A DNA stretch of 27,413 bases, taken from the IMG/VR virus record IMGVR_UViG_3300036671_000282, positions 1 through 27,413 of that record, one strand, 5' to 3'. Of the stretch, positions 3,285 to 27,363 are shown piece after piece (the stretch's first letter is position 1; every line of letters starts with the position of its first letter). The stretch comes from a virus. The notes beneath the pieces are model-generated. The model was not told the origin of the DNA. It did no database searches and saw only the letters and a list, made by a program, of their open reading frames with translations. A program made the translations under genes and the position numbers.

Positions 3285-3357
3285 TACCCTATAACTCAGT
3301 TGGTAGAGTGCCGAACTGTTAATTCGGATGTCCCTGGATCGAGGCCAGGTGGGGTAG
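3285..3357 (+). tRNA. tRNA-Asn (GTT)
   Basis: A 73-nt cloverleaf: acceptor TACCCTA/TGGGGTA, D arm ACTC-AGTTGGTA-GAGT, anticodon stem CCGAA/TTCGG with loop CTGTTAA (anticodon GTT), 5-nt variable loop, and T stem CCTGG/CCAGG. The T loop is ATCGAGG instead of TTCGANN, so T54 is replaced by A. CCA is not encoded. It is the only + strand tRNA and sits alone between the subtilase and the endolysin promoter. Confidence 0.95.
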
Positions 3358-3359
3358 CG

Positions 3360-7179: not shown

Positions 7180-7464
7180 ATGCCAAAGCACAAATGGAAA
7201 GATGACGCTTTATGCTTTGAATATGATACTAATCTGTTCTTTGAAAAGTACGAAGATGACGAAATTTTGCGACCAGCAATAGATAAATTGTGTTCTATGT
7301 GTCCTGTGTCAAAGATGTGTTTTGCTGTTGGTGTTTCACAAAAAGAGTGGGGCATTTGGGGTGGTGTATATCTTGAAAATGGACAAATATCTAAAGAATT
7401 TTCAAAGCATAAGTCTAAAGCAGACTGGGCTAATACTTGGCAAAGTCTAACAACGGAGCAATAG
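7180..7464 (+). CDS. WhiB-family Fe-S transcription regulator
   Basis: A 94-residue protein with the four WhiB cysteines: Cys12, then Cys38, Cys41 and Cys47 in CSMCPVSKMC, followed by the GIWGG turn (58-62). These ligate a [4Fe-4S] cluster. The C-terminal basic tail (KHKSKADW) is the expected DNA-contact region, though weaker than in host WhiB proteins. WhiB proteins are essentially confined to Actinobacteria and their phages, making this the best single host marker. It could redirect host sigma-A transcription. Confidence 0.92.
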   Translation: MPKHKWKDDALCFEYDTNLFFEKYEDDEILRPAIDKLCSMCPVSKMCFAVGVSQKEWGIWGGVYLENGQISKEFSKHKSKADWANTWQSLTTEQ

Positions 7465-11870: not shown

Positions 11871-11897
11871 ACTAATCAATCATATCATTATTTTAAG

Positions 11898-11970
11898 TAC
11901 CCTTGGCAGGAATTGAACCTGCGACCTGCGGATTAGAAGTCCGTTGCTCTGTCCCCTGAGCTACAAAGGT
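11898..11970 (-). tRNA. tRNA-Arg (TCT)
   Basis: Acceptor ACCTTTG/CAAGGGT with discriminator A, D arm GCTC-AGGGGACA-GAGC, anticodon loop CTTCTAA (TCT, reads AGA) and T arm GCAGG-TTCAATT-CCTGC. It is the last tRNA of the minus-strand array. It would support AGA-rich phage genes. Confidence 0.95.
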
Positions 11971-11974
11971 ATTG

Positions 11975-12057
11975 CGGAAGCAACAGGATTCGAACCTGTG
12001 GATCTTTCAATCTACGATTTAGCAAACCGTTGCATTCGACCACTCTGCCATACTTCC
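11975..12057 (-). tRNA. tRNA-Ser (GCT)
   Basis: 83-nt class II tRNA: acceptor GGAAGTA/TGCTTCC, anticodon loop TTGCTAA (GCT), long variable arm AGATTGAAAGATC, and T arm with TTCGAAT. Four bases separate it from the Arg gene. Confidence 0.95.
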
Positions 12058-12062
12058 TTTCG

Positions 12063-12134
12063 TAGCCCCACAGGGACTTGAACCCTGTTCACCAAGATGA
12101 AAGCCTGGTATCCTAACCTATGGACGATGGGGCC
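12063..12134 (-). tRNA. tRNA-Glu (TTC)
   Basis: Acceptor GGCCCCA/TGGGGCT, with G1-U72 as the first pair. Anticodon stem CCAGG/CTTGG around CTTTCAT (TTC), T loop TTCAAGT. CCA is not encoded. Confidence 0.95.
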
Positions 12135-12138
12135 TTAG

Positions 12139-12212
12139 TACACCAGATAGGACTTGAACCTATGATAACCGAATTATGAGTTCGGGGCCTTAACCAACTT
12201 GGCTACTGGTGC
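12139..12212 (-). tRNA. tRNA with CAT anticodon (Met or Ile2)
   Basis: Acceptor GCACCAG/CTGGTGT (G1-U72), D arm with AGTTGGTTA, anticodon stem CCGAA/TTCGG around CTCATAA (CAT), T arm ATAGG-TTCAAGT-CCTAT. The anticodon alone cannot separate elongator Met from lysidine-modified Ile2, which would read ATA, a common codon in this AT-rich sequence. Confidence 0.93.
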
Positions 12213-15527: not shown

Positions 15528-16295
15528 ATGGCTATCGTATCCGTTGAGGCATTAAAAACCAAGTTTGAGGCTGGTGATAGACCTGTTAAACAAGATTATC
15601 TCAATTTAATTGATACCCTGGCCACATTGCCTGAAGGCGGAGTAGAAGGCCCTCAAGGAGTTGTCGGCCCAACTGGTCCTACAGGGCCACAGGGTGTGCA
15701 GGGAATTCAGGGAGATACGGGTACTACAGGTGCCACAGGGACAACAGGTGAAACTGGTTTAACGGGATATGTTGGAGCAGTTGGCCCAACTGGTGTGACT
15801 GGCCCAATCGGCGCAACAGGCTCCACTGGTTCGAGCGGTGCCACAGGTGCCACAGGGCCAGTTGGTGCAACAGGTGTCTCAGGCTCTATTGGTGCCACAG
15901 GCTCCACTGGTCCAATCGGTGTTACAGGTCCACAGGGCGAGGTTGGTGCGACTGGTGCTACTGGTGAAACTGGTTCTAGTAGTTCAGTTCTAGGAATCAA
16001 AGCACGGAATGGAACAACTTATACATTAGTTGCTGGTGACTTAAATGATTTAGTCACATTAAATAATGCAAGTGCCATTACCTTAACAATTCCTCCATCA
16101 GTATTTAGTGCTAATGATGCTATTAACATTGCTCAAATTGGCGCGGGTCAAGTAACCTTTGCTCAAGGAGCAGGTGTTACAATTCACTCAACTGGAGCTA
16201 GTGCAACAGCACCTAAATGCCGAGCACAATACTCAGCAGCAACAGTTATTTGCACAGCATCTAATACATTTTTAGTAATCGGAGACTTAGCCTAA
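15528..16295 (+). CDS. Collagen-like tail fibre protein
   Basis: The 255 residues comprise an N-terminal helix (about 1-38; [26 protein letters not shown] in essence) seen in phage fibres, a Gly-X-Y collagen-like region from about 40 to 155 (mostly GPTGPTG, GATGATG types, Thr-rich in Y), and a C-terminal beta domain (from about 160, [17 protein letters not shown]) that probably trimerises or binds the host. The Pro-containing triplets are candidate substrates for a prolyl hydroxylase. GC content is visibly higher than in neighbouring genes, partly a consequence of Gly/Pro/Ala codons but also suggestive of modular transfer. Confidence 0.88.
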
Positions 16296-17311
16296 TGCCT
16301 ATACTTGGAATTATTGCTAGCGCATTTAGGGCTATTGTTTACACGCAATTTATCGCCGTTGCACACTACCTCATACCAGGCATTTCAACCTACCCGTGGT
16401 CTGCTGGCTTTGGAACAAAGTACGCAAACCCTTCAAATTTTCTCAGCAATGGCTATTGTTACGGCGTAGCATTTAACCCAGCAGGTACTGCAATCGCCGT
16501 TGCACAAGGCTTCTCACCCGTCGTCTCAACCTACCCTTGGTCTCCAGGCTTTGGCACAAAGTACGCGGACCCTGCAACCTTGCCTACTGGCACTGGTCGC
16601 AACGTTGCATTTAACCCAGCAGGTACGGCGATTGCTGTTGTACACAACAACACACCGTTTATATCTACCTACCCTTTTTCTGCGGGCTTTGGCACAAAGT
16701 ACGCGGACCCTGCAACCTTGCCTGCTGATCGTGGTCGCGGCGTTGCCTTCAACCCAGCAGGTACGGCTATCGCCGTTGCACACGAAACCACACCGTTTAT
16801 TTCCACCTACCCGTGGTCTCCAGGCTTTGGCACAAAGTATGCAAACCCTGCAACCTTGCCTGCTGGTCAAGGTGGTTACGGCGTAGCATTCAACCCAGCA
16901 GGGACAGCAATCGCCGTCGCACACGGGGACTCACCGTTTATTTCGACCTACCCGTGGTCTGCGGGCTTTGGAACAAAGTACTCAAACCCTGCCACCTTAC
17001 CTACTGGTGCTGCTTTAAAAGTGGCATTTAACCCAGCAGGTACGGAAATCGCCGTTGCACACTTCACTACACCCTCAGTCTCAACCTACCCTTTTTCTGC
17101 GGGCTTTGGTACGAAGTACGCAAACCCTGCAACCTTGCCTACTGGTTATGGTACTGGCGTAGCATTTAACCCAACAGGTACGGCTATCGCGGTAACCCAT
17201 AGCACCACACCCTTCGTCTCAACCTACCCTTTTTCTGCGGGCTTTGGTACGAAGTACGCAAACCCTGCAACCTTGCCTACTGGTACTGGTAACAGCGTTG
17301 CATTTACTTAA
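16295..17311 (+). CDS. Seven-repeat beta-propeller tail protein
   Basis: 338 residues; ATG overlaps the fibre stop (TAATG). Seven repeats of about 44 residues follow the pattern GVAFNPAGTAIAVAH, TPFISTYPWS, GFGTKYANPATLPTG; the FGTKY motif occurs seven times. The repeat ends after VAFT, and the N-terminus supplies the matching FIAVAHYLIPGIST strand, so the first and last blade should close by 'Velcro' as in WD40 propellers. It is probably a fibre-tip or baseplate-associated receptor-binding propeller. DNA-level repeat identity is high, so recombination between blades is likely. Confidence 0.85.
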   Translation: MPILGIIASAFRAIVYTQFIAVAHYLIPGISTYPWSAGFGTKYANPSNFLSNGYCYGVAFNPAGTAIAVAQGFSPVVSTYPWSPGFGTKYADPATLPTGTGRNVAFNPAGTAIAVVHNNTPFISTYPFSAGFGTKYADPATLPADRGRGVAFNPAGTAIAVAHETTPFISTYPWSPGFGTKYANPATLPAGQGGYGVAFNPAGTAIAVAHGDSPFISTYPWSAGFGTKYSNPATLPTGAALKVAFNPAGTEIAVAHFTTPSVSTYPFSAGFGTKYANPATLPTGYGTGVAFNPTGTAIAVTHSTTPFVSTYPFSAGFGTKYANPATLPTGTGNSVAFT

Positions 17312-24892: not shown

Positions 24893-25195
24893 CTAATCTT
24901 CTTTTTTTTCTCTTTCGTCTTTCTTTTGTTCTACAATCTCAAGAAGGTCGTCAAGATTATCAACCTCTGAAACGTCTTCCTCTGTTATTTCCATAGCATC
25001 AAGGAACATCGCAAATGTTTCATTTACATACTCCTCTGCCATTGGTAGTGGTTTTACAACTCCCGTTGCAATAAACCAAGCAAGTGGCAAACCAACATCG
25101 TTGTATCCAATAAATGGCTTTAGCTCTTCATCATCTCTGAACTCAAACCAGAACTGTCCTAAAATACCACATCTATCTGCAAAATTTACTTCCAT
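24893..25195 (-). CDS. Acidic protein of unknown function
   Basis: 100 residues, with an N-terminal globular part (FADRCGILGQFWFEFRDDEE, GLPLAWFIATGVV) and a strongly acidic helical tail (VDNLDDLLEIVEQKKDERE). Start overlaps the upstream 25186 gene. Resembles small conserved actinophage proteins; function unknown. Confidence 0.7.
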   Translation of the reverse strand: MEVNFADRCGILGQFWFEFRDDEELKPFIGYNDVGLPLAWFIATGVVKPLPMAEEYVNETFAMFLDAMEITEEDVSEVDNLDDLLEIVEQKKDEREKKED

Positions 25196-25428
25196 AACTT
25201 GTCGTACCCTTCTCCTAAGTATCCTGTCATAAGTTTATCATACTCTTCCCCTGCTGTCAAGGCAACTACCTCAAGTCTGCGTGATACAATAACTGGGTGG
25301 TTATGTACCAAGTGGAAGCCTAATGATTCTAAGTTTAGTCCCATGTCCTCAGTTAATAACTTAGCCATACGATTAGAGTATTGGATTTCCTTTGTGCTTA
25401 CTGGTGGTTTGCGAATTGTGTATGCCAT
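25186..25428 (-). CDS. Conserved small protein of unknown function
   Basis: 80 residues (start MAYTIRKPPVSTKEIQYSNR). The middle LGFHLVHNHPVIVSRRLEVV is strand-rich. It has its own promoter (TGA-TACAAT, 25446-25451) and the ribosome site AAAGGAGAA, an SD-type gene unlike many others here. Function unknown. Confidence 0.7.
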   Translation of the reverse strand: MAYTIRKPPVSTKEIQYSNRMAKLLTEDMGLNLESLGFHLVHNHPVIVSRRLEVVALTAGEEYDKLMTGYLGEGYDKLWK

Positions 25429-25445
25429 AGTTCTCCTTTGTATCT

Positions 25446-25454
25446 ATTGTATCA
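25446..25454 (-). promoter_or_regulatory. Extended -10 promoter for the 25428-24893 pair
   Basis: Minus strand TGA-TACAAT at 25454-25446; TTGCGC 17 bp upstream is a weak -35. It directly follows the terminator of the upstream gene. Confidence 0.6.
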
Positions 25455-25495
25455 AAAAAGTATGGGGAGCGCAAGTATGCGAGTACCTGCGCCCC
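25454..25495 (-). terminator. Intrinsic terminator after the 25537 gene
   Basis: On the minus strand GGGGCGCA...TGCGCTCCCC (25495-25464, with a CT bulge) is followed by ATACTTTTTTG. Strong GC stem plus T-run. It separates the 26980-25537 operon from the 25428 operon. Confidence 0.7.
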
Positions 25496-25508
25496 ACCCT
25501 TTATATTA

Positions 25509-25532
25509 GTTTAGAGGACCCAATCTCTAAAC
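25509..25532. other. Perfect 8-bp hairpin next to the terminator
   Basis: GTTTAGAG (25509-25516) and CTCTAAAC (25525-25532) around GACCCAAT, four bases after the 25537 stop on the minus strand. Probably a 3' end stabiliser or an operator. Confidence 0.5.
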
Positions 25533-25536
25533 TGGT

Positions 25537-25923
25537 TTAGATGTTCGACTTCAAGCAAGGCATCGTAGAGTTCGGTATCGTCGCACACCAAAACCACGCA
25601 GCCACAAAATTGTCAAATGTAACGGTTACATTATCTGTGATAGTGTTATTAGTAAAATCAATAACTACTGTTTGTTCTCCCAGGTCCCAATTATCATTAC
25701 TAATAGCATAAATACCAAACCCTGTTTCATCTAAGATGTTATGCTGAATAAGATAACTGATCATCATCCGTGTTGCATATGAATAATCTTGCATTCTTGG
25801 TTTTGCATGCATTAGAGCAGCCGCAATGTCATGTTCCCATCCATCCTGGCCCCAATGGCTATACAGTACTACTGCAGGGCCCTGCTCTGAATCTTTAAAT
25901 ACATAATTAATACGGGCTCCCAT
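25537..25923 (-). CDS. Conserved phage protein of unknown function
   Basis: 128 residues (start MGARINYVFKDSEQGPAVVL, then YSHWGQDGWEHDIAAALMHA). The N-terminal strand and SHWG motif plus RMQDYSYATRMMISYLI recur in many actinophage hypothetical proteins. A C-terminal hydrophobic Trp pair (FVAAWFWCATIP) follows. Start overlaps the previous stop. Confidence 0.72.
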   Translation of the reverse strand: MGARINYVFKDSEQGPAVVLYSHWGQDGWEHDIAAALMHAKPRMQDYSYATRMMISYLIQHNILDETGFGIYAISNDNWDLGEQTVVIDFTNNTITDNVTVTFDNFVAAWFWCATIPNSTMPCLKSNI

Positions 25924-26264
25924 TAGTTGTCCTCTACTTCGTATTCGCCTGTGAAATCAATAACTACCATGCCAACACGGCCATCCTCTGTAATGTTTGC
26001 GTATACAGGATAGAGTCCGTCTCCGTATCCCGTTGAAAATGCAACAGCACTCATATTGCCTAATTGACCAAAGCCTTTGCCAAGAGTGGCATTGCAGGCC
26101 CCTAAGTATCCGTACTCTCCTACATTATTAGCGTGATTCTCAAAATCATCTTTCTCTGCGTCCCAGAGTTTCCAGTCCTCTAAGTAGCAAGGGTCACCAA
26201 TAATTGCTTGTCCACTGTCTACCATAAACTCTCCGATAAGTGTTAAACTATCTACTGATAGCAT
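25923..26264 (-). CDS. DUF4241-like protein
   Basis: 113 residues with SGQAIIGDPCYL near the N-terminus and AVAFSTGYGDGLYPVYANI in the second half, a pattern shared with DUF4241-type beta proteins. Strong ribosome site AAAGGAG. It overlaps the 25537 gene by one base. Confidence 0.72.
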   Translation of the reverse strand: MLSVDSLTLIGEFMVDSGQAIIGDPCYLEDWKLWDAEKDDFENHANNVGEYGYLGACNATLGKGFGQLGNMSAVAFSTGYGDGLYPVYANITEDGRVGMVVIDFTGEYEVEDN

Positions 26265-26300
26265 TTGTTTCTCCTTTGGGTTGTTTATCTAAGTTTAGCA

Positions 26301-26444
26301 TTATTTTGTTTGTATGTCAAGTCTTTCTTTGATTAACTTGGCAATGATATTATGAGCTTCAATGTTTTCTGTTTCGCTACCGCCCCACAAAAGCTTTTGG
26401 GCTTTTTCCAGGGTATCATTTATATACTTATCTGTCATTTTCAT
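26301..26444 (-). CDS. 47-residue helical protein
   Basis: MKMTDKYINDTLEKAQKLLW then a loop and AHNIIAKLIKERLDIQTK: two helices. ATG 26444 overlaps the previous stop (TAATG) and follows AGGAGG. Not recognised. Confidence 0.65.
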   Translation of the reverse strand: MKMTDKYINDTLEKAQKLLWGGSETENIEAHNIIAKLIKERLDIQTK

Positions 26445-26665
26445 TACTTACCTCCTGAAAAAGATATATCATATGTTAACTGATATACTTTAACATAAGC
26501 GTCAAGCATACCTTCCATATATTTATAGATAGGGTCATCAACATCTATGTCTATCATGTCCTGCTCTACCTCATACATTAGGTTCTTAAGTTCTCCATGG
26601 ATGATGTCAAGGCCTGATATGTTTCTACCTACTAATTGTTTAATCTTATCGTCTGTCATTGTCAT
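26444..26665 (-). CDS. 73-residue acidic helical protein
   Basis: I choose ATG 26665 (start MTMTDDKIKQLVGRNISGLD), just after the upstream stop, with AAGGGG as ribosome site; a longer version from 26740 would overlap the upstream gene. Residues 25-65 form an acidic helical pair (EVEQDMIDIDVDDPIYKYME). Function unknown. Confidence 0.65.
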   Translation of the reverse strand: MTMTDDKIKQLVGRNISGLDIIHGELKNLMYEVEQDMIDIDVDDPIYKYMEGMLDAYVKVYQLTYDISFSGGK

Positions 26666-26666
26666 T

Positions 26667-26840
26667 TTAGTTCCCCTTGTTTTTACTAAGTATATCCTCT
26701 GCCACTGACAAAAGTTGGCGGGATGTATCAAGAGCAGCATTAATCTCTGTATAGCCTACATCATCCTCAGAGTAGTACTTCTCCATATCTTGCTCAAGGC
26801 TAAGGATATGTAGTTTAATATAAGCAATCATTTCTATCAT
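26667..26840 (-). CDS. 57-residue helical protein
   Basis: MIEMIAYIKLHILSLEQDME then an acidic YYSEDDVGY segment and a helix (LDTSRQLLSVAEDILSK). Starts with an ATGA overlap. Similar helix-acid-helix plan to the next gene, so possibly distant paralogues. Confidence 0.65.
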   Translation of the reverse strand: MIEMIAYIKLHILSLEQDMEKYYSEDDVGYTEINAALDTSRQLLSVAEDILSKNKGN

Positions 26841-26980
26841 TTCATATACCCCTCTGATACATCCTTAAAACGGTCTACTACTATTTGACATGCGCCATCT
26901 ATAATTTGGTCATCAAAACCATCCAACCAAATAATTAAATCTTCTTGTATTCTTTCCGATAGTTTCCTCATTTTTGTCAT
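26837..26980 (-). CDS. 47-residue protein from repeat 1 promoter
   Basis: MTKMRKLSERIQEDLIIWLD, then GFDDQIIDGACQIVVDRFKD, helical. Leaderless start from the promoter inside the 77-bp repeat (TTGATA-17-TAGAAT-6-ATG); its first codons MTKMR come from the repeat edge and match the leader MTKIR at 27297. Confidence 0.68.
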   Translation of the reverse strand: MTKMRKLSERIQEDLIIWLDGFDDQIIDGACQIVVDRFKDVSEGYMK

Positions 26981-27046
26981 AATATAATTCTACTCTCTAC
27001 TGTTGGGAATATCAAGTTTTAGGGGTGTGATCTTGGTCACTTTTTT
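26970..27046 (-). repeat. 77-bp promoter repeat, copy 1
   Basis: Identical over 77 bp to 27287-27363. Minus-strand content: a CRP/GlxR-like dyad TGTGA-N6-TCACT (27026-27041), -35 TTGATA (27015-27010), 17 bp, -10 TAGAAT (26992-26987), six bases, and the start ATGACAAAAAT. So it is a mobile-looking complete promoter with operator and start codon. Confidence 0.88.
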
Positions 27047-27074
27047 CTAATTCTCCAACTACAAACCAAATCAT
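27012..27074 (-). CDS. 20-residue ORF, doubtful
   Basis: ATG overlaps the 27071 stop (ATGA), product MIWFVVGELEKSDQDHTPKT, ending inside repeat 1. It would be translated from the same mRNA as 27071. Too short to confirm. Confidence 0.3.
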   Translation of the reverse strand: MIWFVVGELEKSDQDHTPKT

Positions 27075-27268
27075 ATCTGAATCTCCTTTGCATGTCCATA
27101 TTCTTCAATAACTTGCTCAAACTTATCATTTTCAAATCCGCCCCACTCTGCTTTAATTTCAGCAAGTTGTTCGTCGTTCAAGTCCTTGGTATCAAGCACA
27201 TGTATAATAAGTTTTGAATCTATCACTTCCAGCCAATCCCCATTGCCAGTAGATATGTATAGCGTCAT
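27071..27268 (-). CDS. 65-residue acidic protein
   Basis: MTLYISTGNGDWLEVIDSKL then ELAEIKAEWGGFENDKFEQV: strand-rich start and acidic helical end. Ribosome site AGGAG lies inside the leader ORF at 27268-27297. Function unknown. Confidence 0.68.
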   Translation of the reverse strand: MTLYISTGNGDWLEVIDSKLIIHVLDTKDLNDEQLAEIKAEWGGFENDKFEQVIEEYGHAKEIQI

Positions 27269-27297
27269 TATTTATCTCCTAATCTAATTTTTGTCAT
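27268..27297 (-). CDS. Nine-residue leaderless leader peptide MTKIRLGDK
   Basis: Begins at the ATG of repeat 2, six bases after TAGAAT, and stops as TAATG on the 27071 gene start. It contains the downstream ribosome site, so its translation likely couples to the 27268 gene. Confidence 0.45.
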   Translation of the reverse strand: MTKIRLGDK

Positions 27298-27363
27298 AAT
27301 ATAATTCTACTCTCTACTGTTGGGAATATCAAGTTTTAGGGGTGTGATCTTGGTCACTTTTTT
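27287..27363 (-). repeat. 77-bp promoter repeat, copy 2
   Basis: Same as 26970-27046, 317 bp away. Dyad 27343-27358, -35 27332-27327, -10 27309-27304, ATG 27297. Confidence 0.88.

Follow-up and report, generated by a model that had tools for sequence, protein, structure and literature searches.

Near the right end of the window, a 27.4-kb virus record analysed here over its whole length, two nearby stretches carry almost the same promoter, which raises the question of which regulator reads them and how the second copy arose. The repeat copies (26967-27046 and 27284-27363) agree at 79 of 80 positions; 77 bp are repeated exactly at an offset of 317 bp, and both cassettes lie on the minus strand. 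Read on that strand, each copy is AGTGACCAAGATCACA-N10-TTGATA-N17-TAGAAT-TATATT-ATG. The first element is a palindromic dyad that matches the TGTGA-N6-TCACA consensus at nine of ten bases in both copies. Within the window, TTGATA-N17-TAGAAT and GTGACCAAGATCAC are each matched exactly only at the two copies, no third cassette copy is present elsewhere on the contig, and the exact cassette core has no match elsewhere in viral contigs. The first-pass annotation had described two exact 77-bp repeats with promoter, start codon and a CRP/GlxR-like operator whose centre lies about 53 bp from the ATG, and its coordinates, identity and distance were all reproduced.

In agreement with the same annotation, each copy opens a different ORF. 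Copy 1 leads from 26980 into a 47-aa ORF (MTKMRKLSERIQ...), for which no homologue was found among the family loci compared, and copy 2 leads from 27297 into the nine-residue MTKIRLGDK, followed by a 65-aa gene with AGGAG upstream of its start. A pattern search for relatives of the 65-aa protein was empty; a whole-record search found its homologue in phage contig G047, and as this occupies a similar operon slot, we regard the 65-aa ORF as a real gene. The nine-residue ORF had been called a leader feeding this gene. This reading is corrected here, and MTKIRLGDK is best read as a short, putatively leaderless ORF between the transcript end and the 65-aa gene with its Shine-Dalgarno sequence (SD).

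Table 1. Features of the cassette region, in coordinates of the window.
Feature	Position	Strand	Remarks
Cassette copy 2, exact 77 bp	27287..27363	-	79/80 over 27284-27363
CRP/GlxR-type dyad, copy 2	27343..27358	-	AGTGACCAAGATCACA; 9/10 consensus; centre -53.5
Core promoter, copy 2	27304..27332	-	TTGATA-17-TAGAAT
Short ORF MTKIRLGDK, 9 aa	27268..27297	-	predicted leaderless; stop overlaps next start (TAATG)
65-aa gene	27071..27268	-	SD AGGAG; 52% identical homologue in G047, similar operon slot
Cassette copy 1, exact 77 bp	26970..27046	-	
CRP/GlxR-type dyad, copy 1	27026..27041	-	centre -53.5
Core promoter, copy 1	26987..27015	-	TTGATA-17-TAGAAT
47-aa ORF	26837..26980	-	predicted leaderless
57-aa gene (MDLNTF...SLEQD family)	26667..26840	-	in relatives directly behind the same cassette
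Small-gene block	24893..26740	-	in synteny with the relatives' CRP-box block

The right half of the window consists mostly of small minus-strand genes, and the block in Table 1 is syntenic with a block in many viral contigs. A WhiB gene (7180-7464; PF02467, E 1.9e-10) marks the window as actinophage DNA, WhiB being an actinobacterial marker (PMC10202952), and 20 records out of 30, including the window, encode WhiB. The window is a fragment of a WhiB-encoding freshwater phage family with contigs of up to ~116 kb. Early expression of the block and hosts of the acI type are likely; a search of the open literature for links between acI bacteria and CRP returned nothing useful. The 'Ca. Nanopelagicales' phages E7 and F5 are likewise of freshwater origin and encode WhiB, but they are 39 kb in size, and the part of PMC10202952 consulted makes no mention of a CRP-box regulon.

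The CRP box is strongly enriched in the relatives. Perfect TGTGA-N6-TCACA occurs 165 times in 31 whole records, against a single occurrence of the reversed motif as a control of the same composition. It is found in 28 of the 31 records with 1-10 sites each, about one of which per record is there through the selection of the records while the others are unselected, and the boxes are concentrated in one small-gene region per contig. A partly redundant set of 141 family loci (1.37 Mb) contains 573 boxes, whereas eight other palindromes were counted 1-5 times. A loose pattern (GTGA-N6-TCAC, 7-15 bp, TTGAYA, 16-18 bp, TANNAT, N6, ATG) was matched in at least 119 viral DNA stretches, nearly all with gaps of 10-12 and 17-18 bp although wider ones were permitted; a second pattern, which did not require the ATG, gave 71 matches. 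Most of the loose-pattern promoters precede a conserved protein of 46-49 aa (MKKTPEELRRLMELRRSNA...), the others unrelated small genes. This protein is small and basic (L003 4457-4606 and many relatives), has the cassette in front of it in most contigs and had no match in the phage collection. In five contigs of higher GC (L129, L141, L147, L177 and L179) a CRP-type promoter has the identical 10-bp gap and 17-bp spacer; L129 and L177 encode WhiB. The related isolate DSL-LC01 contains no such sites, hence the trait is not universal. More copies in this genome had also been thought possible: the contig holds none, but further operators are expected past its right edge, because relatives have many of them in the syntenic block.

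A second element, GGCGTGTCG/CGACACGCC, was noticed in the family loci (e.g. L004, L006 and L017), where it occurs 307 times in 1.37 Mb and its reverse twice. Most occurrences have a CRP box no more than 40 bp away; in promoters of the -64.5 class described below, the element is often located between that box and the -35. It includes GACAC, the WhiA/WhiB core, and the phages encode WhiB; this is a lead only.

Orthologous promoters show where conservation is focused. In relatives the cassette stands directly before the gene family of the 57-aa gene, and in 18 in-register sequences, one of them from the window, the information content is 1.97 bits per base in the half-sites, 0.62 in the N6 and 0.74 in the linker. 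Many of these orthologous promoters have TTGTAA or TTGTCA as -35 and lie outside the reach of the search pattern. Invariant half-sites around a variable N6 indicate selection on a palindrome that binds a protein and is kept at constant spacing.

The distance between box and promoter was examined with strict promoter calls, loose calls giving a noisy scan. From 254 non-redundant dyads, a strict promoter starts at 10 bp in 27 cases, at 21 bp in 19, at 29-32 bp in 13 and at 39-41 bp in 8, with few between and an expected background of ~0.05 per position; redundancy may have survived the clustering, so that these counts are not independent events, and the band centred at -53.5 is partly ascertained, since most loci were found by a pattern containing this arrangement, while the other three bands are not. 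The four bands, centred near -53.5, -64.5, -74.5 and -84, are about one helical turn apart, and the periodicity of the last three on their own (R 0.59 for distances >14 bp) exceeds that of all 20,000 random draws. The sites lie upstream of the -35. Permitted positions one helical turn apart imply that the protein on the box has to be turned towards RNA polymerase, as in class-I activation, and the box positions are the signature of a class-I activator. Class-I CRP promoters of E. coli also place TGTGA-N6-TCACA upstream of a sigma-70 promoter at positions that recur with each helical turn, namely -61.5, -71.5 and -82.5. The bands do not match these canonical positions, their phase being off by a few bp, and the genes concerned here are phage genes with putatively leaderless starts in the -53.5 class. 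The phage spacing bears on how actinobacterial CRP is positioned relative to RNA polymerase.

In the window copies the ATG follows the -10 by 6 nt. With the usual six-base discriminator, the predicted transcript start is the A of the ATG, which puts the dyad centre at -53.5, and the start at the cassettes is probably leaderless. The -53.5 class comprises 124 distinct promoters, and in 96 of them the -10 is followed by an ATG at 5-8 nt, a figure partly ascertained because one search pattern demanded the ATG; in the -64.5 class this holds for one of 65. In the MDLNTF orthologues the same ATG placement was seen independently of the search pattern.

Taken together, we consider it likely that the cassettes, as phage promoters of the sigma-70 type, are under activation by host CRP/GlxR from -53.5, belong to a family-wide set and were recently duplicated here. 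A host cAMP receptor protein of the CRP/GlxR type would bind the upstream dyad, presumably in dependence on cAMP, and would activate the phage promoter in a class-I manner, with transcription starting at the A of the ATG and leaderless translation following. Throughout this family of freshwater actinophages with WhiB, such CRP-box promoters would drive a block of small genes that are probably expressed early, and the recent duplication of the -53.5 promoter would have provided one copy for the 65-aa gene and one for the 47-aa and 57-aa genes.

Relatives also suggest which copy was added. G047 has one promoter, followed by two small ORFs, the 65-aa homologue and the 57-aa family gene; in the window, the 65-aa gene is preceded by one promoter, and the second lies with the 47-aa ORF between the 65-aa and 57-aa genes. 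As the single promoter of G047 is upstream of the 65-aa homologue, the inner copy is probably the added one. The outer copy may also be the addition, since relatives lacking the 65-aa gene have the promoter immediately next to the 57-aa family. A near-identical pair occurs in one of 142 loci, the window, which indicates that the copying was recent and local and not the general route by which the regulon spread. The recent duplication proposed by the first-pass annotation is thereby supported. Its further idea of a regulon built by promoter copying does not hold generally: elsewhere the promoters have their architecture in common but not their sequence.

The exact 77-bp pair, and the variation among relatives of the genes between promoter and 57-aa family, might alternatively reflect a mobile promoter cassette whose shuffling spreads the regulon, an idea compatible with activation by host CRP/GlxR. 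Such cassettes are known from T4-type phages as promoter-early stem-loops (PeSLs), in which an early promoter comes after a stem-loop terminator of the same strand, and which likewise are duplicated promoter units between small genes of unassigned function. In contrast to these, the cassette lacks a same-strand stem-loop and has an activator-type dyad, and beyond the two copies in the window no such pair is found in the other 141 loci. A candidate terminator on the plus strand, formed by the dyad and a T-run, folds no better than shuffled sequences (z -0.36). We regard mobility of this kind as possible but unlikely.

As to the reader of the dyad, searches of 20 phage records per model with PF00027 and PF13545 (cNMP-binding domain and CRP-type HTH) gave no match, with positive controls such as C. 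glutamicum. With no CRP-family protein detected in the phages, host CRP/GlxR is the likely reader, a host CRP being assumed. The regulons of M. tuberculosis CRP (Rv3676) and C. glutamicum GlxR share their consensus with the phage boxes; the latter differ in residing in phage genomes, with up to 10 perfect boxes per contig in one block. GlxR activates ldhA in C. glutamicum from the same consensus (PMC7999487). For M. tuberculosis Rv1592c, CRP sites are listed at -54.5 and -101.5, and expression is down in the crp mutant (PMC4117774, Table 2). The site at -54.5 is an actinobacterial precedent for the cassettes and counters the earlier remark that about -53 is not a classical CRP distance. A scan of genome contigs for the -53.5 arrangement gave 29 matches, none labelled actinobacterial, and is uninformative on the host because it fixed a single spacing and required perfect boxes.

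The dyads could instead be operators of a phage-encoded repressor or activator that uses TGTGA-N6-TCACA, leaving the block self-controlled without cAMP. The sites do sit in one genome block, as is often the case for operators of phage-encoded regulators, and most block genes are of unassigned function; a phage regulator of another fold could read the dyad. Nevertheless, the motif is the exact CRP/GlxR consensus, the profile searches detected no CRP-family protein in the 20 phage records covered by each model, and class-I phasing that spares the core promoter speaks against a repressor. The same arrangement is also found once each in the higher-GC, WhiB-encoding L129 and L177. A phage-encoded reader thus appears improbable.

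CRP-family proteins activate or repress depending on position (PMC4117774), and host CRP/GlxR might accordingly bind the dyads as a brake on the block under some nutrient state. Against this, the boxes are phased with the helix on the upstream side and keep clear of the core promoter: the first 7 bp after a box end contain no start of a strict promoter, and a box near the -10 was seen in only two. Repression, which the first-pass annotation had held possible, is therefore very unlikely. That the repeat was produced by faulty assembly near the contig end is scarcely credible. The outer copy does lie 50 bp from that end, and for these 50 bp no homologue was recognised; yet there is a one-base difference between the copies, their flanks are different, each is correctly positioned for its gene, and the 65-aa gene adjoins the 57-aa family gene in G047 too. 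A case for misassembly can be made chiefly for the terminal 50 bp past copy 2.

With activation by host CRP/GlxR as the preferred reading, a wider proposition follows, to which we give equal measures of belief and doubt: a widespread lineage of uncultured freshwater actinophages may have put a possibly early gene block under host cAMP-CRP through operators spaced by helical turns, together with GGCGTGTCG, and infection would be gated by the energy or carbon state of the host. If true, phages of lake actinobacteria would take host cAMP as an input. CRP affects individual phage decisions; here the signal would act on up to ten perfect, phased operators in one genome block, conserved across a large uncultured phage family. 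In the open literature, a search for CRP sites in phage early promoters returned nothing relevant. The sequence signature can be used for finding such phages, and reporter assays in a model actinobacterium could address the question.

Some other features of the window were recorded. It contains five tRNA genes (11897-12212 and 3285-3358), four of them clustered, and among known phages only DSL-LC01 gave a DNA match, which is located within the tRNA-Arg gene. An HslV/proteasome-like peptidase (PHROG 1040, Pfam Proteasome) is encoded at 1569-2093, and 2-1039, truncated by the contig end, codes for a long tract of Pro-Gln/Glu/Lys repeats with a glycine-rich tail behind it. The gene at 16295-17311 encodes about seven tandem repeats of ~46 aa each (STYPWSAGFGTKY...NPAGTAIAVAH) and adjoins a collagen-like ORF (15528-16295).
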